A stretch of DNA of 64,000 nt, from positions 1 to 64,000 of the forward strand of contig JAITPR010000008.1 of assembly GCA_031289315.1 (NCBI GenBank). Direction: 5' to 3'. Of the stretch, positions 13,740-37,000 are shown one piece after another. Numbering within the stretch: position 1 is the stretch's first letter; the number at the start of each line of letters is the position of its first letter. The notes beneath the pieces are model-generated. The model searched no databases, was not told where the DNA came from, and saw nothing but the letters and a program-made list of their open reading frames with translations. The position numbers and the translations under genes were made by a program. The DNA comes from Clostridiaceae bacterium. Its GTDB lineage: Bacteria > Bacillota > Clostridia > Christensenellales > CAG-917.

Positions 13740-16700
13740 TTAAATCCAGTAAGCGTAAAGTTCCGTGTCTTCGGTTTTGTTCCAAGCTATGACACTTGCT
13801 CCGGTTTCGTCCGTGTAGCGCGTACCGTTACCTCCCGGCTCGTCATACCAACCGCCGAAGGTATATCCTTCTCGTGAGGGTACCGGCAGATTAAAGCTCT
13901 CTCCGTAGGTAACGGTTTCCGTACCGGAGCTTTCGCCCGCCGTGCCGCCCTCGTACGGCTCGTCGCCCTCAAAGTCCAAGCTAAAGGTGATGATTTGTCC
14001 GTAGGCGGAATAGGGATAAATCCGCAAATAATACAGTACTCCGGCGGTGACACTCATGGAATGTTCGGTTAAACTGCCGAAGCTGGACATATTCAACGTG
14101 CCGGCTACAAGATTTTTGTTTATTGTGCCGTAGAACGGATTGTAGACGTCGGTATATAACCCGACGTAATAAATATAATTTGCCGACGAATTTTCATAGC
14201 TCAGGGTGTTAAATGTCAATGTACCGCTCACCGGCGCAACAAACGCCAAATACTGCGAAAGAGTTATCGTTTGATACATGTTTCTCGCCAAAATATCTAT
14301 CTCACCGGTGCCGTAATGTTGAACCCATTTGGCAAAAAGCGTGATGTCGCCGTCGACACGCGCCGCGAAATCATACGCGCTTCCGTTGCCTTCGGAATTG
14401 CCGTACCAACCCGCGAATATGTAATCTCCGCTACGTTCGGGGGAATTGGGGTAAACCAACCCGTTGGTTTCGGTTATGACTTGCGGCGGCGGAGGCGTAC
14501 CCGCAACGCCGTTCAAATCGAAGGATACCGTAAACTGCGCCTTGCTGAAGGACACCGTATACTCGTTGGGAGTCCACAGCGCGGTAAAGGTCTTGTTGCC
14601 GGCACTTCCCTGCGGAATTACGCCGCCCTCAAGCCAGCCGTCGAACTCATACCCATCACGGGTCGGGTCCAAAAGCGTTATCGTTTCCGTTTCCTCAGTG
14701 TATCTTACCGGATTGCCCGCGGCGTTTTCTCCGCCGCCCAGTATGTAACTTATCGAATAAACGTCAAGCCAACGCGCGTAGAGGATACCGCCATGCGGTT
14801 TATCCCATATGCTCACGCCTTCCATGCGCACATTGTAATACAATTTTCCGCCGGCTTCCGCGTCATAATATCCGGCAAACACCGCATTCGCTTTGGTCGG
14901 AGCCACGGCTTGCGGCAGGTTAGCGCCGTATATTGCGGTTACGCTTTCCGTGCCTCCCGCGCCGCCCTTAAAGTCAAGGGTCACAGTGTACTCTCCGGAG
15001 TCCCATGAGGCGGTAAAAATCTTGTCGCCGGTACTGCCCTTTAAGATTGTGCCGCCATCCGACCAACCGGTAAAGTCGTAGCCCGCGCGAGTCGGGTCGG
15101 CAAGAACTACGGTATCGAACTCCACCGTATAGGTCTGCGGATTGGTCGCGGCGTTTTCTCCGCCGCCCAGTACATACGATACGGTATAGACGTGCAATTC
15201 CCACACGGCGGAATAATTTCTGTTGCCGGTGCTGCCCTTTGTTATAACGATATTATCTCCCGACCAGCTCACAAAATCGTAGCCTCTGCGCGTCGGGGGC
15301 GCAATAATGATTGTGTCGGACTCCGCCGTATACTTCGACGGATTTCCTGCGTTATTTTCTCCGCCGTTCAAATCGTAATTAATTGCATATTCCGTAGCCG
15401 TCCAAAGTGCAGTGAACATCTTATTTCCCGTACTGCCCGTCGGAATTATGCCGCCGTCCGTCCAACCGTCGAATTCGTAGCCGGCACGCGGCACGGGATT
15501 AAGCAGAGTAATTGTGGGAGAGTTCACCGTATACGCCGTCGGGTTCGGATTGTTTGCCCCGGCGTCCTCATAGGTTATGGTATAGGTCACGATGCTCCAG
15601 CCCGCGGTAAAGTTCTTATGTCCCGTGCTGCCCGTCGGGATTACGCCGCCGTTATTCCAACCGGTAAAATCATAGCCCGCGCGCGGCGCCGGATTAAGCA
15701 ATATAAGCTCCGGTGACTCTACGGTATAAGTCGACGGATTCGGGTTATTCGCCCCCGCGTTGATATAGGTTATCGTATACGTAACGACCTCCCACGTCGT
15801 CCTGAAGGTCTTATTCCCCGTGCTTCCGGCGGGAATTACGCCGCCGTCCGTCCAACCGGTAAAATCGTAGCCCACGCGCGCCGCCGGGTCAAGCAAGGTA
15901 ATCACGGACGACTCTACGGTGTATGTCACCGGGTTCGGGTTGTTCTCCCCGGCATTTATATAGGTTATGCTATAGGTTACAACGCTCCAACCCGCGGTAA
16001 AGGTCTTCGGTCCAGTACTGCCCGCCGGAATTACGCCGCCGTTATTCCAACCGGCAAAGGTGTAGCCCGCGCGTGCCGCAGGGTCAAGCAAGGTAATCGC
16101 CGGCGACTCTACGGTGTACGTCGCCGGATTCGGATTGTTCCCCCCCGCGTTTATATATGTTATCGCATACGTGACAATCTCCCACGTCGCCGTGAAGGTC
16201 TTGTTTCCCGTGCTTCCGGCGGGAATTACACCGTCGTCCGTCCAACCGGTAAAGTTATAGCCCGTACGCGCCGCCGGGGCAAGTAAGGTAATCGTAGGCG
16301 ACTCTACGGTGTATGTCGCCGGGTTGGGGTTATTCTCCCCCGCGTCCTCATAGGTTACGGTATAGGTAACGGCGCTCCATTTGGCGTACACCACGGTATT
16401 GCCGGTAATAACTCCGCCAAAGTTAAACGGCACGGTGCCGCTTGTGTCCGCATACCAGTCTACAAACGAATAACCCGGCTTTACGGGGTCGCGTGAGGGA
16501 CGCGCGACAAGCCCGGTTTCCGTGTCGCTTTTCGCGCTTGCAACCGCACTGCCGCCGGACGTATTGAAGCTAACATCGTACGCCGTATAGCCCGGAACCG
16601 TAACGCCGTAATCCCACATGGCGTTAAGGCGTATATCTCCGGTTAAAACGGTGTTCGCGTCAAAGCGCTCTCCGGTTGAGTAAAACCACCCTAAAAATTT

Positions 16701-20567: not shown

Positions 20568-20714
20568 ATCATATATTTAAATATTTTTTATTTTACCTTG
20601 CGTCTTCACTTGTAAACGCAAATCAGTTTTACACTTATCAATACATATTTTTTTGCTACCTCTAAAGCACGTATGAAGGGTACGGATAGTCCAAAAAGGA
20701 ATATACCTTTATTG

Positions 20715-21353: not shown

Positions 21354-21390
21354 ATTATGTTCTCCACTATATTTCTTTATGTAAATTATC

Positions 21391-21421
21391 GCTTATCGTT
21401 GTTTATGCAACGGTAAGCGAT
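21391..21421 (-). pseudogene. Very decayed toxin-tip remnant / inverted repeat
   Basis: The minus strand reads GCTTACCGTTG..CAACGATAAGC, closely parallel to the better-preserved remnant at 21887-21946 (GCTTGCCGTTG..CAACGGCAAGC). Both form an inverted repeat. The aligned stretch CAACGATAAGCGAT matches CAACGGCAAGCGGT. The homology is short, so confidence is modest. Confidence 0.35.
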
Positions 21422-21462
21422 AAACCCACGTTATTAGACTGATATAATTTTGTCTGCTCTAT

Positions 21463-21876: not shown

Positions 21877-21886
21877 ATTTTCTCTC

Positions 21887-21931
21887 TTATACCGGCAATC
21901 CGAAAAATGCGTGATACCGCTTGCCGTTGTA
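21887..21931 (-). pseudogene. Orphan toxin C-terminal tip
   Basis: Between two stop codons on the minus strand lie the codons for YNGKRYHAFFGLPV, then TAA. The end HAFFGLP-V/A is the same as the C terminus of the full-length gene at 22424-23554 (HAPHAFFGLPA). It sits directly upstream of an immunity-like gene, as the full-length toxin tail sits upstream of the paralogue. Confidence 0.7.
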
Positions 21932-21993
21932 TTAAACAACGGCAAGCCACATATCAGTTACTGACGGCAAAATTAAGCCGCAAGAAGCTTAAA

Positions 21994-22410
21994 CTATTCT
22001 TCGCTAATTTGTTTTAGCCGCAGTTCAAAGTAATCGTCTAACAGCTTTTTTATTTTTTTGCCGTTCTTATATGTTTCTATTTGGCGATTGAGAAAATAAT
22101 CAAGATACGGAAACATATTCATAGAGTAGTATCCTTGATCTAACTCATTATACAGCCAGTAGCATTCAACCCCGTTAATATCATTATATCTTGACACCTC
22201 AATAGGACCGAAGTCACCCGGAGTACAAACCTTTTCGCTATCCGGAACTTTGCGAAGCGGGCGCTTCATAGCTTCTTTTATCTCTTTAATAAAGTCGCAC
22301 TCTCTAATATCTTCCGTGAAGATATAAAGTCTTTCTCCGTCGTTAGACCACAATATTGATGCCTCAAATACGTCTTCATATAACATGCACATTTTTTCAA
22401 GATTTGTCAT
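21994..22410 (-). CDS. Immunity-like protein, paralogue 2
   Basis: A 138-aa soluble protein: MTNLEKMCMLYEDVFEAS, ILWSNDGERLYIFTEDIREC and KVCTPGDFGPIEV. Nearly identical to the gene at 21463 over residues 1-75, it then diverges to YWLYNELDQGYYSMNMFPYLDYF. It begins only about 14 nt after the stop of the toxin-tailed membrane protein, so the two are probably co-transcribed. I infer that it neutralises the C-terminal domain of that protein; no domain is recognised. Confidence 0.65.
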   Translation of the reverse strand: MTNLEKMCMLYEDVFEASILWSNDGERLYIFTEDIRECDFIKEIKEAMKRPLRKVPDSEKVCTPGDFGPIEVSRYNDINGVECYWLYNELDQGYYSMNMFPYLDYFLNRQIETYKNGKKIKKLLDDYFELRLKQISEE

Positions 22411-22423
22411 ATTTCACCTATTT

Positions 22424-23554
22424 TTATGCCGGCAACCCAAAAAACGCGTGCGGAGCATGTGTACCCGGTGAACCTCTTAATGGAATTTCAGATATTGAGT
22501 GATAGTGAAACATATATCCACTTTCAATAGTGCCATGATTTTCCGGATAATACTTTGGCGTTCGCGAAGAATATCCCACAACGTCAAGTACCATAAAAAT
22601 ATAAGTTTCACTAACTGAATAAATACTTCCAATCATATCTTTATTTGGTTCAACAATACTAGGTACGGCTATGGGTACATTCATTATATACGTAGCCATT
22701 GCAGCACTAATCGGCGAAACCGATAGATATATCTGACCTTTGGGATCAACAAAACACAGCCAATATTGCCCCTTTGGCAATACTTTTATATTTTCCTTTG
22801 TTCTTGCTTGCGTTTGCACTTTTGTTCCGCTTATTGTGACGGTCGGTGTTTGGGCTATTGTAAAGGAAGACTTAACAAGATTAAATATATCTTGCGCTTT
22901 ATTGGTTAAATCTGAAAACAAGCCGCCAATCGCCCCTTGAAAGTCGGGATTTATCGCAACAGATATAACAACTACGCCAAGCAGAACAAGAGCAAGAGAC
23001 AGCGCCACGCTTGCAGAAAACGTTAATACCAAGCACTCGTTTACGCCGTCGGTATTAAACGTTTCTAATAAATATACTCTTTCGCCGTCATGTTCCACAT
23101 AGACGTCGTTTCTCTCCTCGTCTAAGGTAGGTTCGACCGCTTTATTGAAAACTTCTATAATCCCGTTATCATCGTAGTACGTTACCGTAAGATATAACTG
23201 CCCGGTTGAAAGATTGTAGTACGTATCGTATTTTTTTCTTACCGCCTCTCCGCTTGCCAAATAATCAAATCCGGATAACTCACCTAAGGAAGCCAACTTT
23301 TCACCGGAAAACCTCAATCCGCCGTCTTCCACGCCCGCATCGTATGTGTCAAACTCTGAAATTATCTCTCTCATTTGTTCTTCGTAGGTAACACCTATAG
23401 ACTCAATTGTTCTGACGCTATAGTCCGTAAGCTCCTCCGGCACGGGTATGTACGTATTTATTCCCATCATTTTCGGAAGTATAAACATTCCGGCAAGGAC
23501 TATAATTGCCGCTATACAGACAATTAAAAATCCTCTTTTTTTCAAGGCTCTCAT
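22424..23554 (-). CDS. Membrane protein with polymorphic-toxin-like C terminus
   Basis: A 376-aa protein starting at the ATG at 23554, which has GGAG 9 nt upstream; a TTG at 23569 overlaps that site. It has an N-terminal membrane helix (about 8-27), an extracytoplasmic part of about 150 aa, a second helix (about 178-202, VALSLALVLLGVVVISVAI) and a soluble C-terminal region. The last residues, MFHYHSISEI..HAPHAFFGLPA, match the HYH...H.FFG tail common at the ends of Rhs/LXG-type and other contact-dependent toxins in Bacillota. Two paralogous small genes and toxin-tip remnants follow. No catalytic domain can be assigned, so toxin activity is inferred. Confidence 0.55.
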   Translation of the reverse strand: MRALKKRGFLIVCIAAIIVLAGMFILPKMMGINTYIPVPEELTDYSVRTIESIGVTYEEQMREIISEFDTYDAGVEDGGLRFSGEKLASLGELSGFDYLASGEAVRKKYDTYYNLSTGQLYLTVTYYDDNGIIEVFNKAVEPTLDEERNDVYVEHDGERVYLLETFNTDGVNECLVLTFSASVALSLALVLLGVVVISVAINPDFQGAIGGLFSDLTNKAQDIFNLVKSSFTIAQTPTVTISGTKVQTQARTKENIKVLPKGQYWLCFVDPKGQIYLSVSPISAAMATYIMNVPIAVPSIVEPNKDMIGSIYSVSETYIFMVLDVVGYSSRTPKYYPENHGTIESGYMFHYHSISEIPLRGSPGTHAPHAFFGLPA

Positions 23555-23761
23555 ATAAACTTTCTCCAAAAAAAATATTTTTTCTTTATGCTATCAAACG
23601 TAGTTGCCGTTGTCAAGCATTACTTTGATTTTTGCAATTTGCCTTTCAATCCCGTATCCCAATTTCCGCATATTTGCGCGAATTAATCGGTTCGGGCGGT
23701 GGTTTCATGTCTGCATGGGTAGAGTTCTCCTTTATAAGGTATTTTCTATCGACTTAATGAT

Positions 23762-23781
23762 AACACTCTATATATAGAGTG
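23762..23781. promoter_or_regulatory. Perfect 20-bp palindrome, likely operator of the XRE gene
   Basis: ACACTCTATATATAGAGTGT is perfectly symmetric. It lies 40 bp upstream of the HTH gene start in the divergent spacer to the toxin-tailed gene, and its centre could serve as a -10 element. XRE regulators bind such sites; binding here is inferred. Confidence 0.6.
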
Positions 23782-23820
23782 TCAAGTACTGCGCTCAATA
23801 TATTTAGTAAAATAATCTAT

Positions 23821-24033
23821 ATGAAAGAATTTGCGGTAAAGTTTTTAGAATTGCGAAAAGAAGCAAAATTAAGTCAGGCGCAAATTGCGAAAGCTTTAGG
23901 CGTTAGTTTTAGCATAGTTTGTTATTGGGAAACGGATAAAAGTGAGCCGTCCATTGTAAATCTTGTTAAAATCGCTAAATTCTTCAACGTATCTGCGGAT
24001 TATCTTTTAGGTCTATCGGATTTTGAGTGGTAG
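23821..24033 (+). CDS. XRE-family HTH transcriptional regulator
   Basis: A 70-aa protein that is essentially one Cro/C1-type HTH domain: LRKEAKLSQAQIAKALGVSF, SIVCYWETDKSEPSIVNLVK and the C-terminal VSADYLLGLSDF. The start at 23821 gives the standard domain; an upstream start at 23779 would overlap the palindrome. No strong Shine-Dalgarno is seen, so it may be translated from a nearly leaderless message. It is divergent from the toxin-tailed gene, so it may control that operon or itself. Confidence 0.85.
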   Translation: MKEFAVKFLELRKEAKLSQAQIAKALGVSFSIVCYWETDKSEPSIVNLVKIAKFFNVSADYLLGLSDFEW

Positions 24034-24224
24034 CACGGCGTACTTGCGCGGAGTTGCCACCTTAAGCACAATCAAAAGGTTCTATATCCCAAAGGCGTAA
24101 ATCCGGTCAACTTCGACACGCGATTCCGTGAAGAATAAACACACGGTAAGCGGAGCGAATACTAATAAATTTAGAACACTGTTCAGTAAGAATTAATCAG
24201 ATACACGGTAAGACTGATGACTTA
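24034..24224. other. Non-coding spacer with direct repeats of a family B edge
   Basis: CACGGTAAG...ACTAATAAATTTA occurs at about 24134-24166 and again at 24203-24237, the second running into the family B hairpin. The same edge (ACGTAAG...TACTAATAAATTTAAAAA) flanks copy B7 at 37990. No gene is seen. Confidence 0.5.
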
Positions 24225-24385
24225 CACTAATAAATTTAAAAACGCGGTTGACGCTAAGGATATAATCCTGCGTCAACCGCGTTTTTCAAGTGATCAGTGT
24301 CAAGCGTCACGCTTGCGTTTTTTCGGTTCCTTTTGGGCACCCAAAAGGAACAAGGGCGTTCTTTTTGACGTATGTCAAAAAGAAC
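24225..24385 (-). repeat. Family B, copy B3, directly behind mnmA
   Basis: Read with mnmA (leftward), 10 nt after its stop: GTTCTTTTTGAC/GTCAAAAAGAAC (24385-24358), GTTCC..GGAAC stem (24351-24326), CAAGCGTGACGCTTG (24317-24300), then the large hairpin AAAAACGCGGTTGACGC / GCGTCAACCGCGTTTTT (24286-24238) with a T run. The first stem and the small stem each differ from other copies by paired changes. Confidence 0.85.
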
Positions 24386-24394
24386 AGCGGCTCA

Positions 24395-25735
24395 CTACCG
24401 TATAACGCCGCCGCCTATGCAGAGATTGCCGACGTAGAGAACGCAATACTGTCCGCTTGCCACGGCTCTTTGCGGGGACGCAAACGTGACGCGAACACAG
24501 CCGTCCTTAGTAACGGTGGCAAACGCCTCTTGCAACGGCTGACGGTGGCGTATGCGCGCAAGGCAATTAAAACCCGTTTCACGGGAAACCGCTTCAGCAA
24601 CAGTTATGAAACTTAAATTATCGGGAGGGAGCGTGTGCGGCTCAAAACTCCTACATGCGCCCTTATCAATGTCTGCGCGCGGTGTGACGGATTGCCCGTT
24701 AGCATGCGTATCTTTATTATCAGCGCCGTTACACGCACCGTTAAAGGGTTTCCCGTTTGTATTCGTGCCGTCCTTACACGCGCCGCTAGAAGCTTGCTCA
24801 TGAGTATGCGCGCCATCCTTATAATCGCCGTTACACGCGCCGCTATCGGGGACGGGGACGCCGGATATGAAGTTAAAGCCGTCCGTTTCTAACGCGTCGG
24901 AGAACAGCTCCGGAGGTTCGCCCTGCGACACGTAGAGAATATTTTTTTCGACGTCGCGCCGCACCACAAACCACGGCTCACCGTTGCCCGCACCGCCTAT
25001 TCCCAATCCGTGACGCTGCCCGTTCGTGTAATAGAACACCCCGTTATGCCGTCCTACGGTTTTACCGTTGCGGACGTCCACCATGTCGCCCTCTTTCATG
25101 GGAATGTATCCCTGAAGAAACCGGCGGAAATCGCGTTCACCGATGAAGCAAATACCAGTGCTGTCCTTTTTAGCCGCCGTGGGAACACCGTGCGCCTCCG
25201 CATACACGCGCACCTCCGGTTTCGTCATGTTCCCTATCGGGAACAGTATCCTGTCAAGCTGCGCGTTCGTCAACTGATTTAAGAAATACGTCTGGTCTTT
25301 ATTCCCGTCTGCGGCGCGCATTAAGTAGTTCACTCCGCCGCGCGTCACAGACTGCGCGTAATGCCCCGTAGCTACGAACTCCGCGCCCAGTTCCATGGCA
25401 AACCGCTTGAACGGTCCGAACTTTACCTCACGGTTGCATAAAACGTCCGGGTTTGGCGTGCGCCCTTTCTTGTACTCGTCTACGAAAAGCTTAAATACCC
25501 TGTCCCAATATTCCCGTGAAAAATCCGTCGTGTAGTACGGTATTCCTATAACGTCCGATACCGCGCGTACGTCCGCGTAGTCTTCCTCCGCCGTGCAACA
25601 TCCGTTCTCGTCCGTTTCCTTCCAGTTAGTCATGAAAAGCCCAACAACGTCAAAACCTCGCTCCTTTAAAAGAAGCGCCGCTACGGAGCTGTCTACCCCG
25701 CCACTCATTCCTACTACAACACGCTGTTTTTTCAT
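24395..25735 (-). CDS. mnmA: tRNA 2-thiouridylase MnmA with internal low-complexity insertion
   Basis: A 446-aa enzyme that thiolates U34 of Lys, Glu and Gln tRNAs. It has the PP-loop [15 protein letters not shown], the catalytic cysteines in [10 protein letters not shown] (Cys100) and STGICFIGE (Cys196), and the C-terminal barrel end [17 protein letters not shown]. It is about 80 aa longer than usual because residues about 295-371 are an insertion rich in G, A, C, N, D and T, with repeated GAC-(N/K)-G and T-(N/H)-(T/A/E)-(N/H) blocks. The insertion splits the C-terminal barrel before [17 protein letters not shown]. The start at 25735 ([13 protein letters not shown]) is canonical; the longer frame runs into a family B repeat. 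Confidence 0.93.
24623..24853 (-). repeat. In-frame repetitive insertion in mnmA
   Basis: Encodes about 77 residues with repeats such as [39 protein letters not shown] and DKGACRSF. The DNA shows a recurring GCGCCGTTACACGCGCCG-like word, so the stretch probably arose by local tandem duplication in frame. Confidence 0.8.
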
Positions 25736-25765
25736 TTTAGTTGGTTTGGTTAGTTTGTTTATTAG

Positions 25766-25829
25766 GGTTCTTTCTTGCGCGTGCAAAAAAGAACAGCTTT
25801 GTTCCTTTTGGGCGCTCAAAAGGAACCGA
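25766..25829 (+). repeat. Family B, copy B4: two stem-loop modules only
   Basis: GTTCTTTCTTGC..GCAAAAAAGAAC (25766-25794) then GTTCCTTTTGGGC..CTCAAAAGGAAC (25800-25829). The small stem and the large hairpin are absent. It lies just upstream of mnmA. Confidence 0.75.
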
Positions 25830-25983
25830 AGTTGGTGCGCCTTACGAAGCTACACATTTCTATTTCATTAATAGATAATTCAATAAGGCAATTTATTTAG
25901 TTACTTCTTACGAAGCGTATGGCTTAAAATCGTACCATATACGAGAGGAGCAAACGACGAATGCATGAGAGTTGATACGGATA

Positions 25984-26104
25984 ATTTTAAAAACGCGGTT
26001 GACGCTAAGGATATAATCCTGCGGCAACCGCGTTTTTCAAGTAATCGGTGTCAAGCTTCAAGCTTGCGGCTTCTTGGGTTCTTTCTTGCCGGCAAGAAAG
26101 AACG
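25984..26104 (-). repeat. Family B, copy B5, directly behind the gene at 26121
   Basis: Read leftward from the stop at 26121: GTTCTTTCTTGCC/GGCAAGAAAGAAC (26103-26078), CAAGCTTGAAGCTTG (about 26067-26052), then the large hairpin CGCGGTTG / CAACCGCG with a T run (26036-25988). The GTTCC module is missing. Confidence 0.8.
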
Positions 26105-26120
26105 ATAACAAGAACAATGA

Positions 26121-27203
26121 CTATGCGGCAATTTCCTTGCGTTTCTTGTGTTCGACGGCAACGAAGACCGTGAAAACAAATGCACCGAGGGCGAAGACCA
26201 CGCTCCAAAGCCAAAAGAACTGTCCTTTAAAGAGGTTTTGGGCGAAGGTGTGGTTGTGTATGAAACGGAACACGACGGCGGCTATTGTTAACACAACGGC
26301 AAGCAGTGCGGGTATAAACGCGCTAGCATACTTGTTGCTGATTAAGCCGATTAATGCGAGTATGAACACGATGACATCGGCAAGAAGTGCAATTGTAAGC
26401 AATATAATGTCGTAGTTAGCCAAATTGGTGAACACCGCGCCGAAATCGGAGGTATTATTGAGGATAAACCCGATAGCGTCGATATTGCCGAAGGGGAAGT
26501 TAATCCCGCCCGTCGGAGAATAACTTCCGTGGAGGACATATCCGAGCACTATGGGAAGCGCAAAGAAAAGTGAAAGGATCAAGAGCAACAAGCTCTTACC
26601 GCGGAACTTTTCCGGACCGTCAAAGGCGGCTATCGAGGGAGCGGCAGCCGCCGGAGCGACCTCCGCACCTGCGGGATTGTAAGCGGCATTATCGCCCGGA
26701 TAGGCACCGCCGTAAGCCGCTTGCGCTTCGGGATCGGGACCGTAGTCACCGCCGAAGTACTCGTCCTGCCCGCCTGCGCCTTGCTGCGAAGCCGGTGCGC
26801 CGTTCGAAGCCGCACGCGCCGCGGAACTATACGCCGCGCTACCTTCCGCCGTATATTGTAATACAGGCTGGTTTTGCGTAGCGTACGGCACAATCGCAAT
26901 CGGAACGATTATCGGAGAAAGCTGCACGGGATTTTGAGGAGAGATAATGGGCACGCCCCCTATATTCCTCACATACGCGTTCTTATATTTAGGATTAGCG
27001 TATTGTGTTTTCGCGGCGGGTTCCGCAGGCTGTTCGTCCTTTGCGGGGGCGGCATCGACGGTAATATCCTCGTCGTAAACGCCGTCTTCATAAAGGACAT
27101 CGTCGGACTGTGTGAAATCCACCGGGGGTTCGCCGCCGAAAACGGGCTGTTCGACAAAAAATGCTTCATCTTGTCTTGCCTGCTTTTTCTTTTTCTTACT
27201 CAT
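26121..27203 (-). CDS. Membrane protein with Pro/Ala-rich cytoplasmic arm (three-gene unit, third gene)
   Basis: A 360-aa protein of unknown family. It starts MSKKKKKQARQ with GGAGG upstream. An acidic stretch leads to the motif LSPIIVPIAIVPYATQNQP (about residues 94-112), then an Ala/Gly/Tyr/Pro-rich disordered part (to about 195) and four hydrophobic helices (about 205-345), and a basic tail EHKKRKEIAA. The Pro/Ile motif recurs in the two upstream genes of the same strand. Helix layout suggests a small polytopic domain of the DUF4190/TM2-like kind, but no assignment is safe. A family B element follows its stop. Confidence 0.6.
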   Translation of the reverse strand: MSKKKKKQARQDEAFFVEQPVFGGEPPVDFTQSDDVLYEDGVYDEDITVDAAPAKDEQPAEPAAKTQYANPKYKNAYVRNIGGVPIISPQNPVQLSPIIVPIAIVPYATQNQPVLQYTAEGSAAYSSAARAASNGAPASQQGAGGQDEYFGGDYGPDPEAQAAYGGAYPGDNAAYNPAGAEVAPAAAAPSIAAFDGPEKFRGKSLLLLILSLFFALPIVLGYVLHGSYSPTGGINFPFGNIDAIGFILNNTSDFGAVFTNLANYDIILLTIALLADVIVFILALIGLISNKYASAFIPALLAVVLTIAAVVFRFIHNHTFAQNLFKGQFFWLWSVVFALGAFVFTVFVAVEHKKRKEIAA

Positions 27204-27414
27204 ATATAACCTCCGAATACAATAGCTATATTCTAAATGAAGATTGCAACCCGTTTCCGTTTTTACACGGAAACGCGTTTCTTTTACGGTTGATATAAGC
27301 GGTTTCGCTTCGACCGGAACGATTTTACCGTCTTCCAGCGAACGCCTAGGTTATTTTCGGGCTTACCGTAATAACCGCTTCACGGTGTTTAGCCGTTTAA
27401 GCTAAGGTTAAGGC

Positions 27415-28665
27415 TTAATAGCCCTTTTTGCGCTTTGTCACGGCGGAGGCGATTATGCTGATTATCAACAACAGCAAGGAGAGCGCCGCCATCACGAGGA
27501 TACGCGAACCGGAACCTAACAACAAGTCTTTCAATATATCGGCTTCCTCGCCCGGCTTTGCAAAGCCTAAGAAGGACAACCCTATTATACTGAACACTGC
27601 CACTGCCGCCACCGACAGGAATGTGAGAAGTGCGGTTATGAAGAACAGCGGACGTTTGCCGTTTTTACCGCCGCCCGATATGAGGGCGATTAAGCCGGTC
27701 AAGAAGGTGACAAGGGCGAACAGTAACGCTAAGGTCGTAAACAGTAAGGGGGATTGAACCAGTCCTACCGTGCGGGCGGTAATCGTATAACCTCCGCCGT
27801 TGGCGAGTTCGACGATTTCTATGGTTTCTACAATTGCGCCTATGGCAATCAAATCATCAATGGACAACTTTTCAGCGTCTTCATCGGAAAGCTTTTCAAT
27901 GGCTTCGTCGGTCGGCGTTGTCATATGGATATAACCCCAAATCGTAGTTCCGTCGGGCGCGCCGTAATATGAGGATAAGTCAACCAACTTGCGTGCCGCG
28001 ATATACCCATCTAAAGTGTAATCGGTGTCATTGTAGGTCAATTTTAAATTCCTGTATTCGTCCACAGTGAGTGTGGCTTTATTGCCGTCAAACCCTACGG
28101 GTACTCCGCCTATAAGAAGCTGTAAGAAGTCGGGGGCTTCAATATCTTCGGGCGCTTCGCCGGTAGCTAACGCGGCGGCATCTTGATAATACTTTCCGCT
28201 GAACCAGTCGATAAGAGCCGTGAGCGTGTACGGGTCGGACAAGGACAACTTGATTTTCCTAGCGTAATCCGCATCTACTTTGTTGTCAGGATCGGCCTCA
28301 ACTGCCGGGATTATCTCAAACGACAGCGTACCGGGCGCCAAATTGAACATAGGCAACACGAACGGTGCGATGAACAAGAGCGCAAACAGCATCACTAAGA
28401 ATCCCATACCGCGTATTCTGCCACGGCGTGACTTGTACTTAGCCGCATCCTCTGCGCGGGGCTGATAGTCGCTCGCGGAGTTGTAATAATCGGAGTCGGC
28501 TTGCTTAAGCACGACGGATTCCTGCAACGTGACGAGAGGGGACAGCGCAATCGGCTGAACAATCGCCGGCATCTGTATCTCCGCCGAGGGGCGGGGAATA
28601 GGTACGGGCTTTGACACCGGTAGGACGTCAAAGACAACCTGATTGTCAAATTTTTGATTTTCCAT
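27415..28665 (-). CDS. Membrane protein with extracytoplasmic loop (three-gene unit, second gene)
   Basis: A 416-aa protein, family not recognised. AAGGAG precedes the ATG. Near the N terminus is MPAIVQPIALSPLVTLQES, the same motif type as in both neighbours. After a basic patch (KYKSRRGRIRG) comes one helix (about 88-110), a loop of about 190 aa facing out (acidic, ending ELANGGGYTITA), and three C-terminal helices (about 305-410) with a KRKKGY end. It may form a membrane complex with the flanking genes; this is inferred only from shared motif and operon. Confidence 0.6.
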   Translation of the reverse strand: MENQKFDNQVVFDVLPVSKPVPIPRPSAEIQMPAIVQPIALSPLVTLQESVVLKQADSDYYNSASDYQPRAEDAAKYKSRRGRIRGMGFLVMLFALLFIAPFVLPMFNLAPGTLSFEIIPAVEADPDNKVDADYARKIKLSLSDPYTLTALIDWFSGKYYQDAAALATGEAPEDIEAPDFLQLLIGGVPVGFDGNKATLTVDEYRNLKLTYNDTDYTLDGYIAARKLVDLSSYYGAPDGTTIWGYIHMTTPTDEAIEKLSDEDAEKLSIDDLIAIGAIVETIEIVELANGGGYTITARTVGLVQSPLLFTTLALLFALVTFLTGLIALISGGGKNGKRPLFFITALLTFLSVAAVAVFSIIGLSFLGFAKPGEEADILKDLLLGSGSRILVMAALSLLLLIISIIASAVTKRKKGY

Positions 28666-28749
28666 ATTTCACTCCTTATATACGCCGCTTTCGCGACCGG
28701 TGAACGATGTTATAAAACGCGGAGGGTTCTTACGGCAAGACCGTATGTA

Positions 28750-29961
28750 CTACGCGTCCTTATTGCCTAAAATTTCATTAACCGCGTCCGTATCGTCCGG
28801 CGAAACCTGCCATAATGGCTGATCCGTGGAAACGAAAGGCACGAATGTAACGGGCTGAATAATCGGGGGCATCTGATACGCCTCTCCGGGCGCGGCGCCG
28901 GCAAAACCGGGAGCCATCATGATGGGACCGCCGCCGTAGCCGTAGGACGCGGGAGCCGGCGCATATTGTTGTTGATATTGCGGGTACGGCGCCGGAGCGT
29001 ATTGCGGTTGAGGCGCATATTGAGGCGCGCTTGCCGCAACATACTGCGGTTGCGGCGCATATTGAGGTTGCGGTTGAGGTGCATACTGCGGTTGCGGTTG
29101 AGGTGCATACTGCGGTTGAGGCGCGTACACGGGGGCGACAACTGCTTCCGCAACGGCTTCCGTCGTTTCTTCGGCTACGTTATCGTAGTAATCACCCTCT
29201 TCCTCCGGCGGTTCCCCGTCAAAGCCCTCAAGCGTTAAATCAAGCTCGGGCTTCTCGACGAATTCCGGTTCTTCGGGAATGGGGTCGAACTTCCCCACCT
29301 CGACGGGCTGCGCCTCTCTAAACGAGATGATGCGCCTTTTGGCGATTAACTCAGCGGTTCTCAGCTTATCCCTTCCGCAACGGATACAAATCTTGCTTTC
29401 GCGTGAATTGACCTTCCCGCAGAACGGACAGACATACCCGGCAAGCTCACGGTCGAAATCCGCCGCGTTTGCCATCGGATCCGAAAGGGCGATGTTTTGA
29501 GCCTTGATAGCCTCGTTCGCCTCCTTCAGCTTTCTGATGTCGTCCGTGTCGAAGCGAGAGTACAGGTCTCTGTACTTCTCGAAGCGTTTGACGCGTTCAC
29601 CAAGCTCGTTTTCCAACTTTTTGATGCGTCTTTCTTCCAACAACGCCGCCTTGTTTTTGGCGATGATGTCCTCCTCGACTTGCTCTGGGGTGTGAGTATC
29701 GGCGGAAATCGGAACAAGTCCGCCGCAAAAACGGCAGAACTTAGACCCGGGATAGTTTTCCTTCCCGCAGGTGGGGCAAACCGGCTTTCTTATTAAAGAC
29801 AGCGTAGCGCCGCATTTAACGCAAAAGAGGCTTCCGCCTATGTTATGGGTGCCGCACTTAGGACAGACGGCGTCGTAATTCTCGACAACGTCTTTACCGC
29901 ACCTTCCGCAGAAGGATTCACCGGGCCCTACTTTATTGCCGCAATTTCTACATACAAACAT
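28750..29961 (-). CDS. Multi-zinc-ribbon protein with coiled coil and PQ-rich tail (three-gene unit, first gene)
   Basis: A 403-aa protein starting at the ATG at 29961, which has AAGGAG upstream. Three CxxC...CxxC zinc ribbons fill residues 1-80 (CRNCG/CGRCG, CPKCG/CVKCG, CPTCG/CRFCG). A charged coiled coil (about 95-165) and a fourth ribbon (CPFCG...CIRCG, about 177-198) follow, then an acidic linker, a repeated APQPQY/PQPQ tract, and the motif MPPIIQPVTFVPFVSTDQP near the C terminus. The architecture suggests a scaffold or adaptor. The last motif is shared with the two membrane proteins downstream, which could be its partners. Confidence 0.7.
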   Translation of the reverse strand: MFVCRNCGNKVGPGESFCGRCGKDVVENYDAVCPKCGTHNIGGSLFCVKCGATLSLIRKPVCPTCGKENYPGSKFCRFCGGLVPISADTHTPEQVEEDIIAKNKAALLEERRIKKLENELGERVKRFEKYRDLYSRFDTDDIRKLKEANEAIKAQNIALSDPMANAADFDRELAGYVCPFCGKVNSRESKICIRCGRDKLRTAELIAKRRIISFREAQPVEVGKFDPIPEEPEFVEKPELDLTLEGFDGEPPEEEGDYYDNVAEETTEAVAEAVVAPVYAPQPQYAPQPQPQYAPQPQPQYAPQPQYVAASAPQYAPQPQYAPAPYPQYQQQYAPAPASYGYGGGPIMMAPGFAGAAPGEAYQMPPIIQPVTFVPFVSTDQPLWQVSPDDTDAVNEILGNKDA

Positions 29962-30110
29962 AAGCACTCCTTATCTTCTTGACACGGCGCCGGCGCGCCG
30001 CTCGATGATTGTCGCATTAACAATTATACACCATGATTTATTGGATATCAAGACTTTATCCAATAAAATTTTTTACAAACCGCGTTTAAGTATAAAATGC
30101 GCTTAAACAC

Positions 30111-31757
30111 TCACTTTTTGAAGCCGTCTTTTAACCCCGCAATTAGGTTGAAAGCCGGATTTTTCTTACTGAAGTCTGACCGTGCGCAAAAGTAACCTTC
30201 GCGCATAAATTGATATTTATCATACGGTTTTGACTTAAGAAGTCCCTTATCTGCTTTTGCATGCTCCAGAATTACCAACGAATGAGGGTTGATTCTGTCC
30301 ATGAAATCGCCGTTGCCGTCCAAAAGTAAGTAGTCGTACATATAAAGTCTAACATCGGAAAAATTTTTCGCGTCGACCCAATGAATTGTACTTTTTACCT
30401 TCATACCAGCATTTTCGCCTCCGGATTTGCTATCCGAAATGAGTTCAGCTCTTACGAGAACGGGTTTTCCGTCTTTATCGGTTTCCGCACCCGTACACTT
30501 TATTACGTAGCTTCCCTTCAACCGAACGGTGCCGTCCGGTCTTAATCTAAAGAATTTAGGAGGAGGATTCAACTCAAAATCCTCTTCCTCAATAAATATT
30601 TCCTTAGAAAAAGTAACCGTGTGCGAACCCGCTTCCGGTTTGTCGGGGTGGTTGAGTATCGTTACTTTTTCGGACGCACCGTCCGGAAAGTTCTCTATTA
30701 TCACCTTTAACGGCTTGGTCACTACCATGCGGCGGAAGGCGTTTGCGTTTAAATCGTCGCGCACGCAATGTTCCAGCATCTGTATGTCAACCTCGGACAC
30801 CGCCTTGGCAACGCCGATTTTGCCGCAAAAGTCGCGTATCGCCACGGCGGGATAACCCCGTTCCCTCATACCGCTTATGGTATGCAAGCGCGGGTCGTTC
30901 CACCCGTCGACGACCTTTTCGTCAACCAACCGCTTCAAAAAGCGTTTGCTCATTATCGTGCGGTTTATGTTCAGCCTTGCAAACTCTATTTGGCGCGGCT
31001 TCGGGTCGTACCCGCAGTTCTCCGTAAACCAATCGTACAAAGGACGGTGGTCCTCAAATTCCAACGAGCAGAGCGAGTGCGTAATGCCCTCTACGGCGTC
31101 TTCTATCGGATGCGCGAAGTCGTACATGGGATAAATCAACCACTTGTTACCGACGTGCGGGTGAACCGCGCGTAAAATACGGTATATAACGGGGTCGCGC
31201 ATGTTCATGTTAGGCGCCGCCATATCTATTTTAGCGCGAAGCACTTTTTCACCGTCGGCGAATTCACCGTCGCGCATTCTTTTGAATAAATCCAAATTTT
31301 CCGCCATGCTTCTGTTGCGGTACGGGCTGGAAACCCCCGGAACGGTAAGCGAACCGCGCGTATTTTTTATTTCTTCCGCTGGGAGGTCGCACACGTACGC
31401 CAACCCCTTTTTAATGAGCAACACGGCGCGCTCGTACATTTCCCCAAAGTAATCGGAGGCGTAGTACAGATTATCCCACGTAAAGCCCAACCATTTTATG
31501 TCCTCTTGAATGGAGTCCACATATTCGTTGTCCTCTTTAACCGGGTTGGTATCGTCAAAGCGCAGATTACAACGTCCGCCGTACTTCGCCTTGATACCAA
31601 AATTTATACATATCGCTTTGGCATGCCCTATATGAAGATATCCGTTAGGTTCGGGAGGAAACCGCGTGACTATTTCGTCGTGCTTGCCGGCTAGTATATC
31701 CTCGTTTATGAAGCTCTCTATAAAGTTGGAAGGCTCCGGCAAATTAGTTTTATCCAT
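30111..31757 (-). CDS. glnS: Glutaminyl-tRNA synthetase
   Basis: A 548-aa class I synthetase charging tRNA-Gln. It has the HIGH motif in PPEPNGYLHIGHAKAI, the GlxRS block RFDDTNPVKEDNEYVD, the KMSKS counterpart in RTIMSKRFLKRL, and the GlnRS anticodon-binding barrel from about residue 340 (FPDGASEKVTILNHP...FSKEIFIEEEDF). Its presence suggests direct Gln-tRNA formation rather than sole use of GatCAB. The start at 31757 gives the usual length. A weak hairpin (GTTTAAG / CTTAAAC, 30084-30107) lies just after the stop. Confidence 0.95.
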   Translation of the reverse strand: MDKTNLPEPSNFIESFINEDILAGKHDEIVTRFPPEPNGYLHIGHAKAICINFGIKAKYGGRCNLRFDDTNPVKEDNEYVDSIQEDIKWLGFTWDNLYYASDYFGEMYERAVLLIKKGLAYVCDLPAEEIKNTRGSLTVPGVSSPYRNRSMAENLDLFKRMRDGEFADGEKVLRAKIDMAAPNMNMRDPVIYRILRAVHPHVGNKWLIYPMYDFAHPIEDAVEGITHSLCSLEFEDHRPLYDWFTENCGYDPKPRQIEFARLNINRTIMSKRFLKRLVDEKVVDGWNDPRLHTISGMRERGYPAVAIRDFCGKIGVAKAVSEVDIQMLEHCVRDDLNANAFRRMVVTKPLKVIIENFPDGASEKVTILNHPDKPEAGSHTVTFSKEIFIEEEDFELNPPPKFFRLRPDGTVRLKGSYVIKCTGAETDKDGKPVLVRAELISDSKSGGENAGMKVKSTIHWVDAKNFSDVRLYMYDYLLLDGNGDFMDRINPHSLVILEHAKADKGLLKSKPYDKYQFMREGYFCARSDFSKKNPAFNLIAGLKDGFKK

Positions 31758-31892
31758 GTTATACGGAATTATCTCCTTTAGTATATAACGGTGTATTTAT
31801 TTTACTCGTGTGCGGGCTGATTGTCAACAACAATTTGCGAACACTTCAATAATTTTACTTTTAGCCGCACAAAACGTGTTTTTTTACGGATT

Positions 31893-32459
31893 TTACACGT
31901 TTTTTTTGATTTTTTTCCTTATGCTCTGCAACGAATTGTCTACCGCCTTGACATTTATGCCGGTCGCGTCGCCGATTTCTCCGTAGGACAAGCCCTGCAT
32001 AAAGCCCCGCAACACCGCAAGCTCCCTCTCCGTAAGAATAGCTTTTAGCTTGTCGTTTAGGATTGTATTCTCCTCCGCCGCCAAAACGTATAACTCCGGG
32101 TCTATCCCGCGGTTGTCCCGCCGCCCCGATGCCTGCTCGTCCGCGCTTACGTCAAGCGGCGAATATCCGTTAAGCGGAGCATGTTTTTTACGGTTCGCCG
32201 CTTTCACCGCGTCGGCAATCTGGCGGTTTATACAAATCGACGCAAAGGTTTTAAAGGCGGCTTCCTTGCCGGGCGAATATTCTCTTATCGCCTTGCACAA
32301 GCCTATCATACCTTCTTGTATTAAATCCTCATAGTCGCCGCCGGTAAGAAAATATCCGCGTGAATACGTCTTAACTCTGTCCTTGTACCGATAGAGTAAT
32401 TCGCTTTCGGCTTCGTAGTCCCCCGACCGGGCTTTTATCACTAATTCTTCGTCCGTCAT
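31893..32459 (-). CDS. sigH: RNA polymerase sigma factor, SigH/Spo0H type
   Basis: A 188-aa sigma-70 family factor. Region 2 reads AESELLYRYKDRVKTYSRGYF, LTGGDYEDLIQEGMIGLCKAIREY, AFKTFASICINRQIADAVK; region 4 has LTERELAVLRGFMQGLSYGEI and a C-terminal HTH ending SLQSIRKKIKKNV. Placement next to rlmB and mrnC is the Bacillota order for sigH, the sigma factor for entry into sporulation and stationary phase. The ATG at 32459 (MTDEELV) matches the family start; a TTG 54 nt upstream is possible. Confidence 0.88.
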   Translation of the reverse strand: MTDEELVIKARSGDYEAESELLYRYKDRVKTYSRGYFLTGGDYEDLIQEGMIGLCKAIREYSPGKEAAFKTFASICINRQIADAVKAANRKKHAPLNGYSPLDVSADEQASGRRDNRGIDPELYVLAAEENTILNDKLKAILTERELAVLRGFMQGLSYGEIGDATGINVKAVDNSLQSIRKKIKKNV

Positions 32460-32649
32460 AGTTTGCGACTTCTTATACGTTTCTTTTAAGGTTTCACGCG
32501 CGCTCACGCGCAACGCGTCTATAACTTATATAACTTAACATTATAGCCTTGTAAGTTGCATTAAGCTTTCCGTTGTCACACGCGCTCATAAGCATTATAC
32601 CACAAGTATTGCAGATACGGCACTGCGAATTCGTTATTTCAAAGCCGTT

Positions 32650-33375
32650 TTAAGCCTTTCGTTGGCGCGCGCACTCATAAAGCATTATACCGGCGGCTAC
32701 GGACGCGTTAAGAGAGTTGATTTTGCCGTTCATGGGTATTGACAAAACTCCGTCACAAAGCTCACGCGTCAAGCGTTTTACGCCTTCGCCCTCTCCCCCT
32801 ATCACTATCGCGGTACTGCCTTTTAAGCTCACGCCGTCTGCGGGGACGCCGTCCGCTTCCGCCGCGTAGACGGTAAAGAAGTTATCCTTTAGCTCCCTTA
32901 TAACGTCGTTGACGTTTGTGGCTTTAACGCACAAAACATATTCCGCGGCTCCGGCGGAGGTTTTAACGACGGTTTCATTTACCGAAACGGCACGGTGCTT
33001 TCCAATAACTACGCCGTGCGCACCTAAGCATTCCGCCGAACGCAAAACCGCTCCCAAGTTCATAGGGTCTTGCACACCGTCCAAAATCAGTATAAGCGGT
33101 TCCTCGCCGCGTTCGGCGGCACACTCTAACACGTCGCCTAACTCCGCATATTTATATTCCGAAAGCTCCGCGACCGCGCCTTGATGTCTTCCGTCCGGCG
33201 CAAGCTTGTCAAGCGCCGCCTTTTCCGAATAGATTACCCGCGCTCCGCCGTCCTTAGCCAGCCTCACTATTTCGCCTAGTTGCCTATCCGTATTGCCGGA
33301 TAATATATATACCTTGTCGCACGTCTTGCCGGAAAGCAAGGCTTCCTTGACGCTGTTTTTTCCGGAAATAAGCAT
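32650..33375 (-). CDS. rlmB: 23S rRNA (guanosine-2'-O-)-methyltransferase RlmB
   Basis: A 241-aa SPOUT enzyme. The N-terminal substrate-binding domain starts ISGKNSVKEAL; the knot domain has LILDGVQDPMNLGAVLRSAE, VIGGEGEGVKRLTRELCD and SIPMNGKINSLNASVAAGI. It follows mrnC with a 3-nt gap, so the two are very likely translated from one message, in the mrnC-rlmB-sigH order of Bacillota. Confidence 0.93.
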   Translation of the reverse strand: MLISGKNSVKEALLSGKTCDKVYILSGNTDRQLGEIVRLAKDGGARVIYSEKAALDKLAPDGRHQGAVAELSEYKYAELGDVLECAAERGEEPLILILDGVQDPMNLGAVLRSAECLGAHGVVIGKHRAVSVNETVVKTSAGAAEYVLCVKATNVNDVIRELKDNFFTVYAAEADGVPADGVSLKGSTAIVIGGEGEGVKRLTRELCDGVLSIPMNGKINSLNASVAAGIMLYECARQRKA

Positions 33376-33378
33376 GTA

Positions 33379-33789
33379 CTATTCCATATCCTTTAGAAAA
33401 TCAAAAAGTGCGCTCAGTCTTTCGCGGTTACCCGAAAGATACAAGTAGCCCACTACGGCTTCAAAGCCCGTTGCGCGTTTATATTCCGTTTCTTTTGCAT
33501 TTTTAGCGTAATGTGTCAGTTTAGCATTGCGCGCGCGCCGATAAACGTCCGTTTCCTCTTCGTTCAGGAATGCGGACAAGCGTTCCGCAATAAGCGATTG
33601 ATTCACAGCACTCACCTCTTTAGAGGCGGTCGAATGCAACGCCCCCGCCTTTGCGTTCGACGATGAGGCAAGGCGACAACGCACGCAAAGAGAATGCACG
33701 GCATCCCCCACATACGCTAACACAAGCGGGCTTAAAAAGCGCGCCTTTCCCTCTATCATAGGTTCGGAAAAAATGGGTTCGTAGTTCAC
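33379..33789 (-). CDS. mrnC: Mini-ribonuclease III
   Basis: A 136-aa RNase III-like protein without a dsRNA-binding domain. LAYVGDAVHSLCVR carries the catalytic Asp region and EVVGYLYL-like FEAVVGYLYLSGN the second acidic residue. It matures the 5' and 3' ends of 23S rRNA in Bacillota. The start is a GTG at 33789 with only a weak purine-rich upstream region. First gene of the rlmB unit. Confidence 0.92.
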   Translation of the reverse strand: MNYEPIFSEPMIEGKARFLSPLVLAYVGDAVHSLCVRCRLASSSNAKAGALHSTASKEVSAVNQSLIAERLSAFLNEEETDVYRRARNAKLTHYAKNAKETEYKRATGFEAVVGYLYLSGNRERLSALFDFLKDME

Positions 33790-33868
33790 CTTTTTATTGT
33801 AACAGAAGCCGGCGCGATAAGCAAGTATTAAAATGAAAACAATTTATACTAAACGCAAAAATCGTTTT

Positions 33869-33920
33869 AAGGGTGTGGACAATTTGCGATTGCAAAATAT
33901 TTTTAGGCTATTTGGGGGAT
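33869..33920. repeat. Family A, copy A5: left half only
   Basis: AAGGGTGTGGACAATTTGCG followed by AAAATATTTTTAGGC matches the left end of the full copies. The homology then stops at TATTTGGGGG. Nothing gene-like is seen in the rest of 33790-34045. Confidence 0.7.
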
Positions 33921-34045
33921 CGCACCCCTTTTTAATTTACTTGCGACAATGCCGCGTTGCCTCTTACGGACGGTTATTTTTCGCTTTCGGCAAGGGCTAA
34001 AATAAAAAAACCAAAAAAAACCGCTCGCTTTAGCGCGTACGGGTA

Positions 34046-34075
34046 TTGACATAAGACACTCATATGTTGTATCAT
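34046..34075 (+). promoter_or_regulatory. Promoter of the transglutaminase lipoprotein gene
   Basis: TTGACA (34046-34051) and TATCAT (34070-34075) are 18 bp apart. The expected transcription start falls at or next to the ATG at 34082, so the message could be leaderless; no Shine-Dalgarno is visible. Confidence 0.6.
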
Positions 34076-34081
34076 ATACAT

Positions 34082-37000
34082 ATGAAAAAGCCGAATTTTA
34101 TAAGAAACCATTTTAGAATATTTTTAGCCGTCGCGGCGTTTGCCATCTTATCGGTAGCGCTCACCGCATGCGGTCTTTTCGATATGCCCTTACAAAGCAT
34201 ATCCTTTGACGAAAGTTACATAGAACTTTTCGTTGGGCAGGAGTCGACCGTAAACTATCGGCTCAACCCGCTCACCGCTTCGGATAAAGTAACGCTTACC
34301 TCCGATGACCCGACGATAGCCACGGTGGACAAGAACGGCAATACCAAGGGCGTCAAAGCGGGTTCCACCAAATTCCGCGTAAAATCGGAAAACGGAAAGG
34401 TATCTGAGGAAATAGAGGTATCCGTTACATACGACAAGCTGAAACACGCCTCGCTAACGGCGGATACCAACAAAGTACAGTATTACGATAAAATTTCCTC
34501 CGCAACGCCGGCGGGAGTGCAACTGACGGTTGCCGTCAATCAGCCGAACGACTACACCAACAACACCTATTTCTCATATGAATGGTTCCTATATAGAGGT
34601 GACAACTACGAGATAACCAAAGAAGAAATCGCGGCTATGGTCACCGCAAACGAAACCGACAAGTATATTCCGTGGACGGCTTTCGAGTCTTATTCGGAAA
34701 TCTTCCGCCCCCAAAAGATATTAGGCGAAGCCATAAGCATGTTTGTGCGCGTTACGGAGAACGGCGGCGAAACGCCTAAAGCCGTATATACCAACCTCGT
34801 TACATTCGGCGTTTACAACGAGATGAGCGGCGTCACCATAGAAGTGCCGCAAGACAGCGGTTTGGAATACGACCCGTCGTCGGGATACACCGCACAGGTC
34901 GGCAGACCCGTTATCCTAACCTTAAAATGGAACGCCAACTGCAACGCCGCGCCCGATATAAAATGGCTCTTCGGCGAAAAGTTTTCGGTTGCCGGCAGTT
35001 TTACCAGCGCGGCGGTCATAGAAGGACAGATAAGCCGTCAGCTTTGGTTTATTCCCACCTCGTTAAACGCGCAGTACGAGATTTCCGCGCGCGCCGACGA
35101 CGCTAACAGCCTTAACACGGTTCAGTTCGCAACAAGAAAGGCGGACGTGGCGGACGTTATTCTTACCCCCGCTACCGCGGACGGCACCGTCTTAGACAAG
35201 ACACGGCTTAATCAGCAAACATCCTCCGTCTTCCCCGTAACGTTTACGGTAGACTGGAACAAGGAATACGCCGGCGCGGATAAAGCCGTGCGTTGGTATG
35301 TAAACGGCGCCGAGCAAATAGGCAGAACCGGCTTGACGTTCACTGTAACCCCCACTGTTGGCGTAACCGCAAGCTATGAGGTATACGCAAAGGTGTTCTT
35401 CAACGACGCTCCCGACGGAACCACCGGCTTTACCCTGTCCGAAAAGCTTGTCTTGCGCGTCAACGAACACTTCGACGCCATAAACAGCGCTCGCATCTCC
35501 GCCGAAAACGACGACTATCTACAACAAAATCTGTCCTCGTTCACAAGCTTTAAAATTAATCTGAACTCCGCTCCCGCCACCACGGTTAATCCCAACGCTA
35601 CGGCCGTTTGGTACAACAACGGTAAGGTCATATCCGGCGCGACATGCAAGGCGTTCGGATACATAGTATTTACTCCGACGGCGGGCGAAAACAACGTCTA
35701 CGCCGTCATAGACAACGTAAGAACCAACACCCTGACGATATTCGTCGTAACCGCGCAAGAAGTCATCGACCGCGAAGCTTATATGCGCGGCTCCTACCTC
35801 TGGAACGGCGAGCTTAAAAACGATTGGATTTCCTATCCCGAAGAGGTTTCCACCGTCGTGCAGTATATGCTAGTAAACAAAATTGCCTCCAAGAGCGTCT
35901 TCTTCCCCTTCTCTCCGAACTTCCCGGACGGTACTACTATGGAATCCGCACTTGACATAGCCGTGCATACCTTCGACGTGGGTATGGGGGCAATCGGTTG
36001 CGGCGTAACAAAACAAGGAAATATCTTTACCTTTAATCTGACGCCCCTGTGTATTGCCGTTCCCGCCGGTCCCTCCGAACCTATCGTTCCTAAAACCGAC
36101 GCGAATGTGCCGCAAGCTCCCTCCGACGTCAATATAGACGGCGTTCCCTACGACGACGCCGAAAATGCACGCACGCTGTTTATAGACTCCGCGCCGCTGT
36201 CACCTGCCGTCGTTACTAACTCAAACATGCTCTTCCTTACCGTGCAGTCCGGTTATAGACCCAAGTTCGACAGCGACGCGAACGGTCAAAAGCTTGCGGC
36301 TCTCTACGCGGATGCCCGTACAATAGCTCTCACGATAATGCGCGACGATATGTCCGACTTTGAAAAGGTACTCGCCATCCACGATTGGATTGTCTACTTC
36401 GTCGAATACGATACCCCAACGGCAAATACCAACGCCTCAACCGATATCTATGTGACTAACAATTCCTTCTACCTAGAGGGCGTGTTCAACACCGTAAACC
36501 GCCTTGCCGTCTGCGACGGTAAGTCTAAAGCCTTCGTCCTCCTCTGCGCAATGGAAAACATTACCGCCTTGCGTATAGCCGGTACCGCTAACGGCGGCGG
36601 TCACGCTTGGAATAAGGTCTTAATCGACCCCGATACCAACGACGATACCGCTATCAAACAATGGTACGTCGTCGATACCACTTGGGGCGACCGCAACGGT
36701 CTAACAAGCAACGGCAGCGAATATGAGTTCCTTACCCATACCTATTTCCTCGTGTCCGATGAGGATATAGCCGCCACACACACCGAAATGAGCTATATCA
36801 AAAACTCTACGGAATATGTAAACTACCCCGTTGCCTCTAACGATGCCTCCTCACTCTACTACAAGAACAAAACCTTTACCTACAACAACACTACGTATTC
36901 ACACTACATCACAACCGACGCCGAACTGGATGCCCTGATTTTATCCCTGAAAGCACAATCCACCGCTAACGGCGGACAGGCTTCCTTCTGCGAAATTCAA

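Follow-up and report, generated by a model that had tools for sequence, protein, structure and literature searches.

Why do three neighboring genes, one encoding a zinc-ribbon protein and two encoding membrane proteins, share the same short peptide? The question is raised by a locus in a 64,000-nucleotide stretch of DNA from a Clostridiaceae bacterium (contig JAITPR010000008.1), hereafter the window, in which genes A, B, and C all lie on the minus strand, separated by 84 bases (A to B) and 211 bases (B to C). Gene A (28750..29961, 403 amino acids) encodes three N-terminal zinc ribbons, a coiled coil, a fourth ribbon, and a P/Q/Y-rich tail with the motif near its C-terminus. Gene B (27415..28665, 416 amino acids) encodes a motif-bearing N-terminal tail followed by four predicted transmembrane helices, and gene C (26121..27203, 360 amino acids) a long, disordered, motif-bearing N-terminal tail followed by a four-helix membrane bundle. 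As a preliminary description of this DNA had proposed, each protein carries one copy of the motif, which spans 23 residues: QMPPIIQPVTFVPFVSTDQPLWQ at residues 363-385 of A (28807..28875, minus strand), QMPAIVQPIALSPLVTLQESVVL at residues 31-53 of B (28507..28575, minus strand), and QLSPIIVPIAIVPYATQNQPVLQ at residues 94-116 of C (26856..26924, minus strand). All three were identified by profile match, and those of A and C also by alignment.

The motif is confined to this locus in its own genome. A first profile of 23 columns, built from 17 motif stretches including the copies of the window, was used in a six-frame search of the genome and found only three matches, in the A, B, and C genes (expectation values [E] of 5.8e-12, 1.3e-11, and 2.6e-8), the next hit having an E of 0.61. 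Since this profile contains the window's own copies, a second one was built using A motifs taken exclusively outside this genome (8 distinct rows, window excluded). This independent profile scored window C at 26.4 bits and window B at 18.0 bits, compared to a maximum of 11.0 bits for shuffled tails (10,800 shuffled tails, of which 8,390 scored). When applied to 33 relatives of C, it gave 9.9 to 19.7 bits with a median of 17.4, the weakest not being above the best shuffle, while only 20 of 34 relatives of B (alignment A5) yielded a score, at -5.5 to 5.3 bits. Chance similarity was rejected on the genome-wide search and the shuffled-tail test together.

Conservation of the motif was then compared with that of its surroundings. 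In A, mean pairwise identity among 34 proteins reaches 0.94 in the motif and 0.20 to 0.71 in other stretches of the tail. In C (34 proteins), the motif has an identity of 0.85 and the stretch just before it is equally high (0.80-0.89), with 0.16-0.6 for the rest of the protein outside motif-overlapping windows and about 0.2-0.4 for the membrane domain. Synonymous sites in the motif codons of both genes vary freely, and the A and C motifs are thus, as judged from this conservation and from their codons, under strong selection at the protein level. The same freely differing synonymous codons led us to reject a sharing of the motif through recent DNA duplication. Prolines stand at positions 4, 8, 13, and often 20, Y14 and T/S16 are frequent, and the hydrophobic core reads PIVxPxAxVPY. 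P8 and P13 are present in all 99 distinct motif matches, a set chosen by profile (12 bits or more in the related families f24 and f13, see below), so that invariant columns are partly selected. Position 7 is gene specific, with Q7 in A and V7 in C, and an upstream element resembling PVPI-x-x-P-x-x-x-I precedes the motif in C, in the window's B, and in many of the small proteins described below.

The B copy behaves differently. Its identity is only 0.39 (35 proteins), which does not exceed that of the remaining protein, and the 34 relatives in alignment A5 mostly display a divergent form that retains Q37 throughout and P33 and P43 in almost every case. The full motif is found in B of the window and of genomes G008 and G001, and a partial one in G005. 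According to these alignments, most B relatives within f1, the family of the window, now carry a drifted variant of the motif. By the preliminary description's own standard, its proposal would fall if orthologues were devoid of the motif or conserved it no more than composition-matched disordered regions; for A and C this test did not refute it, and in B the motif is degenerate in most relatives.

Outside the motif, A is a recognizable zinc-ribbon protein. Pfam assigns Zn_Ribbon_1 to four stretches (E 5.8e-20), with PF13240 at 70.9 bits and PF12773 at 57.2 bits, both above their gathering scores (25 and 27.3, respectively) and with the CxxC pairs present. The three CxxC...CxxC ribbons at residues 4-79 (29725..29952, minus strand) have cysteines that are invariant among 34 orthologues. 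The cysteines of the fourth ribbon at residues 178-195 (29377..29430, minus strand) are invariant too, and this ribbon is homologous to that of f24 proteins. An AlphaFold2 model places ribbons at about residues 1-85 and 175-198, helices within 92-172 (92-136 and 139-160), and a disordered tail, which is of low complexity and rich in P, Q, and Y. The four ribbons, coiled coil, and PQ repeat read earlier from the sequence are confirmed. The start at 29961 also fits A, being an ATG preceded by AAGGAG that corresponds to the start residue in relatives. As for the disorder previously ascribed to the motif in all three proteins, AlphaFold2 agrees for A (predicted local distance difference test [pLDDT] of about 48-58) and for C (pLDDT 48-52).

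B and C are paralogous four-helix membrane proteins as judged by profile comparison, hhalign giving a probability of 99.5% (E 8.9e-23) over the four helices with tails and, when restricted to the membrane region, of 97.9% (E 4.9e-13). More broadly, among four-helix proteins sorted into ten groups, 17 of 45 pairs reached a hhalign probability of at least 90%, a figure that membrane composition may inflate. The three proteins had been described as otherwise unrelated; this holds for A against B and C, whose folded parts are unlike, but not for B against C. The AlphaFold2 model of C shows a four-helix bundle (block pLDDT 64-97) and a disordered N-terminal tail, and the charges of the loops predict that the N-terminal tails of both B and C are cytosolic. 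The window's B (416 amino acids) also has a long acidic loop between its first and second transmembrane helices, which is missing from most f1 relatives (about 260 amino acids).

To follow the locus among relatives, we examined three families of one order, namely f1, f13, and f24. The motif profile (E <= 0.001) matched 39 of 43 sampled genomes in f1 (all but G003, G004, G009, and G012), 6 of 6 in f13, and 39 of 40 in f24. In a sample of the order, 66 of 396 genomes matched, all 66 within these three families, and samples of the class (1 of 391 genomes, E <= 0.01) and of the phylum (1 of 398, E <= 0.001) returned the own genome alone. Named carriers include uncultured Clostridia, Candidatus Limadaptatus, and assemblies labeled 'Christensenella sp.' The gene order A-B-C was found in all 36 named loci as far as the contigs reach (A in 36/36, B in 36/36, and C in 34/36, loci L091 and L113 ending before C). 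In G003, which shares a genus with carriers, all three genes are cleanly absent and glnS is directly followed by the gene that elsewhere comes after C, which we take to be yycJ-like with a metallo-beta-lactamase fold. The three genes, whose joint occurrence the preliminary description had proposed to check, are present together and, in G003, absent as a unit, which suggests that the locus is dispensable there. G004 also lacks A, B, and C, and the assemblies of G012 and G009 are too fragmentary for the site of the locus to be judged. In genome G255, a motif copy lies in a 91-residue frame on a contig other than that of the main locus (C8:38913-38981), which may break the rule of a single locus in each genome.

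Larger versions of the locus are found in f24 and f13, where genes were called with a simple open reading frame picker and each of 25 loci encodes 2 to 6 motif proteins. In f24, the motif is present on 42 of the 94 four-helix proteins called and on 40 small proteins without membrane helices; in f13, it is on 6 of 22 four-helix proteins and on 16 small ones. These small motif proteins have about 63-133 residues, and many consist of a basic start followed by the upstream element and the motif. When eight f24 zinc-ribbon proteins encoded near glnS were picked by hand, all 8 matched the A profile, with E values from 6.6e-22 to 6.8e-11; the nine zinc-ribbon proteins used for the ribbon comparison were likewise picked by hand. 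Several of the f24 A homologues listed combine zinc ribbon, motif, and four-helix domain in a single chain. In f1, in f24, and in 3 of 6 f13 loci, a small and presumably acetyltransferase-like gene stands ahead of the locus, suggesting one ancestral place for it, and many of the f24 loci listed end at what we take to be secE-nusG-rplK.

Two further features of these larger loci were observed. First, f24 four-helix proteins devoid of the motif often carry a second tail motif resembling SPYxxxYxAAR (e.g., L120:5493-6473, L067:11621-12508, and L128:4585-5520), and the pattern P[YQF]xxx[YF] occurs in 18 of 49 f24 tails, whereas 500 shuffles gave 3.6 on average and 11 at most. Second, small motif genes of f13 can form tandem pairs with identical motifs (L065:8369-8578 and 8673-8882; L133:822-1034 and 1229-1441).

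What could such a peptide do? The explanation we favor, with about even confidence, is that the locus encodes a membrane-associated assembly organized by one docking peptide on a common cytosolic receptor, both the receptor binding and the scaffolding being inferred. In this picture, the N-terminal tails of the four-helix membrane proteins B and C would reach into the cytosol, and A would be soluble, with a flexible tail in addition to its zinc ribbons and coiled coil. The same short peptide on all three would bind the same kind of site on the receptor, and this shared binding would bring A and the membrane proteins together. In favor of this account are the restriction of the motif to three genes of the genome and to three families having such a locus, its near-invariance in A and C amid diverging tails and free synonymous change, the constant A-B-C order and the clean absence in G003, the f24 chains that unite ribbon, motif, and four helices, the predicted cytosolic position of the B and C tails, the small soluble motif proteins, and the constancy of P8 and P13. 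In f24 and f13, the peptide is also found on additional membrane paralogues and on small soluble proteins, and the latter could act as bridges or competitors. In a broader version, to which we give somewhat less than even confidence, the locus would be a hitherto undescribed and expandable bacterial membrane organizer in which four-helix paralogues, a zinc-ribbon scaffold, and small soluble adaptors use one interchangeable cytosolic docking peptide, with PYxxxY as a second motif in f24, and would descend from an ancestral locus in three families of gut Clostridia that is dispensable in some lineages.

Several observations weigh against the docking explanation. Our searches found no receptor or partner for the motif, and the best similar peptide among solved structures, a stretch of the tryptophan synthase alpha chain (E 0.62), was taken as chance. 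Docking of the motif on the ribbons or coiled coil of A itself was considered and rejected, as the motif is undocked in the AlphaFold2 model of A alone, weak evidence given its shallow 34-row alignment. The decay of the B motif in most f1 relatives implies that not every member needs it, 52 of the 94 four-helix proteins called in f24 loci are without it, and common ancestry can account for some of what B and C share.

Of the other explanations, the one that survives best, unlikely in our estimation, is mutual pairing, in which motif copies would bind each other as strands or fibrils with no separate receptor. Nearly all carriers hold at least two copies, the f1 operon encodes no receptor candidate beyond A, B, and C, and the small proteins, mostly tail and motif, would serve as chain links. 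However, prolines at positions 4, 8, 13, and often 20 are poorly suited to stacked strands, and the gene-specific Q7 and V7 suggest distinct contexts. Moreover, 4 of 40 f24 genomes have a single match at E <= 0.001, although weaker copies exist in one of them (G172, locus L130).

Clearly less probable than pairing is a role as substrate tag for one enzyme that would modify or cleave all members. An enzyme active site would also be well served by a peptide of this length that hardly varies and lies exposed in a tail, and the frequent Y14 and T/S16 fit this idea. Yet most modification sites need fewer conserved residues than the approximately 20 found here, many of which are hydrophobic or proline positions, and the f1 operon contains no enzyme gene. 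We consider it more doubtful still that the motif is a peripheral hydrophobic anchor on the membrane surface: the core PIVxPxAxVPY is hydrophobic enough to invite this suggestion, but B and C need no extra anchor, and lipid contact does not demand the exact identities of the Q and P residues. Finally, the view that the copies are functionless relics of duplicated tails, prompted by the fact that B and C are paralogues and by the decayed B copy, is very improbable and contradicted for A and C by conservation. The C motif (0.85) is far above its membrane domain, synonymous sites vary freely, and the motif is also present on A (0.94), which is unrelated, as well as on small soluble proteins; the relic view may apply to B where its motif has decayed.

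The surroundings of the locus were also inspected. On the A side lies a gene that we take to be glnS (31757..30111), and on the C side mnmA (25819..24395), identified by Pfam and NCBIfam, whose product has a low-complexity insert of about 100 residues (GACNG/DGTNTNG-like repeats) between its central and C-terminal domains. Upstream of A, a promoter-like TTGATA-17-TATAAT matches 11 of 12 consensus bases (30023..30051, minus strand), a weak candidate on its own since the region has 10 such sites against a shuffled mean of 7.4. After C, a terminator-like 13-base inverted repeat, AAAAACGCGGTTG ... CAACCGCGTTTTT with a 23-base loop (25989..26037, minus strand), was read by eye; the hairpin scan, restricted to loops of 3-8 bases, could not list it. 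No RNA element was found in positions 20000-36000 of the window. Elsewhere in the window, a large tandem repeat (15419..16379, periods of 195 and 390 bases, 75-82% matches) perhaps encodes a repeat-domain protein, and an AT-richer stretch holds an open frame of 381 amino acids (22424..23569) without Pfam or NCBIfam match. Loci L099 and L104 (both at 13234-14178) have, about 3.3 kb past C on the other strand, a further paralogue that combines zinc ribbon and four helices but is devoid of the motif.

We then compared the encoded proteins with those of known systems. For B, Pfam gave no family for the window protein and the best NCBIfam E was 0.013 among 35 members; for C, the best Pfam E was 2.2e-4, any one family being limited to at most 2 of the 34 members, and the window protein had no NCBIfam family. 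PADLOC had no match for B and C, and over 8 proteins its best hit linked an f24 membrane protein to a methyltransferase model (E 8e-5, 20 bits), followed by weaker matches in another f24 membrane protein (E 0.0011) and in A (E 0.0052), none convincing. PHROGs had no match for B, C, and five f24 proteins and only weak ones for A (best E 1.7e-6). The literature searches turned up nothing on the A-B-C locus, and the earlier remark that no described system of this make-up was known agrees with all of these searches: locus, membrane family, and motif matched nothing in the libraries and literature covered.

Partial resemblances can nevertheless be drawn. PF13240/PF12773 proteins share with A the four zinc ribbons; they differ in that no described family covers the coiled coil, the low-complexity tail, and the motif of A. 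The TARP/claudin and synaptogyrin tetraspans resemble B and C in having a four-helix membrane bundle. Foldseek with this bundle returned nothing at E <= 0.001, and VIA-align placed TARP and synaptogyrin chains at Z ~10 with an unrelated designed four-helix bundle first (Z 10.9); given these two results, no kinship to the claudin/TARP/MARVEL tetraspans is shown. One f24 paralogue had weak Pfam matches to SUR7 (E 0.0024) and LHFPL (E 0.012), both under the cut-off.

In eukaryotes, and for a small number of hubs in bacteria, short docking motifs have been studied in detail. In amyloid signaling motif systems, partner genes are adjacent and partners include a nucleotide-binding (NLR-type) receptor; here too, the motif is common to proteins of adjacent genes, and no NLR-type Pfam match was found in the window's A, B, and C or in the cluster proteins covered, eight from f24 and two from f13. 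The amyloid signaling motifs of receptors and effectors in fungi and bacteria (PMC12261475) are likewise about 20 residues long and located in flexible ends of unlike proteins. The motif described here differs in being proline rich and in sitting on four-helix and zinc-ribbon proteins in several copies per locus. With the bacterial sliding clamp and its binding motif (PMC11139829), the proposed system shares the principle that many proteins reach one partner via a short conserved motif, whereas the motif here is longer and nearly confined to one gene cluster. Motif-based assembly is an already known principle (PMC11139829, PMC12261475); the particular system, like its membrane family and the motif itself, had no counterpart in the libraries searched. 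In these gut bacteria, which are uncultured, an entire gene cluster appears wired by one peptide on membrane and soluble proteins, with a copy number per cluster that differs between families and reaches up to six proteins in the loci of relatives.

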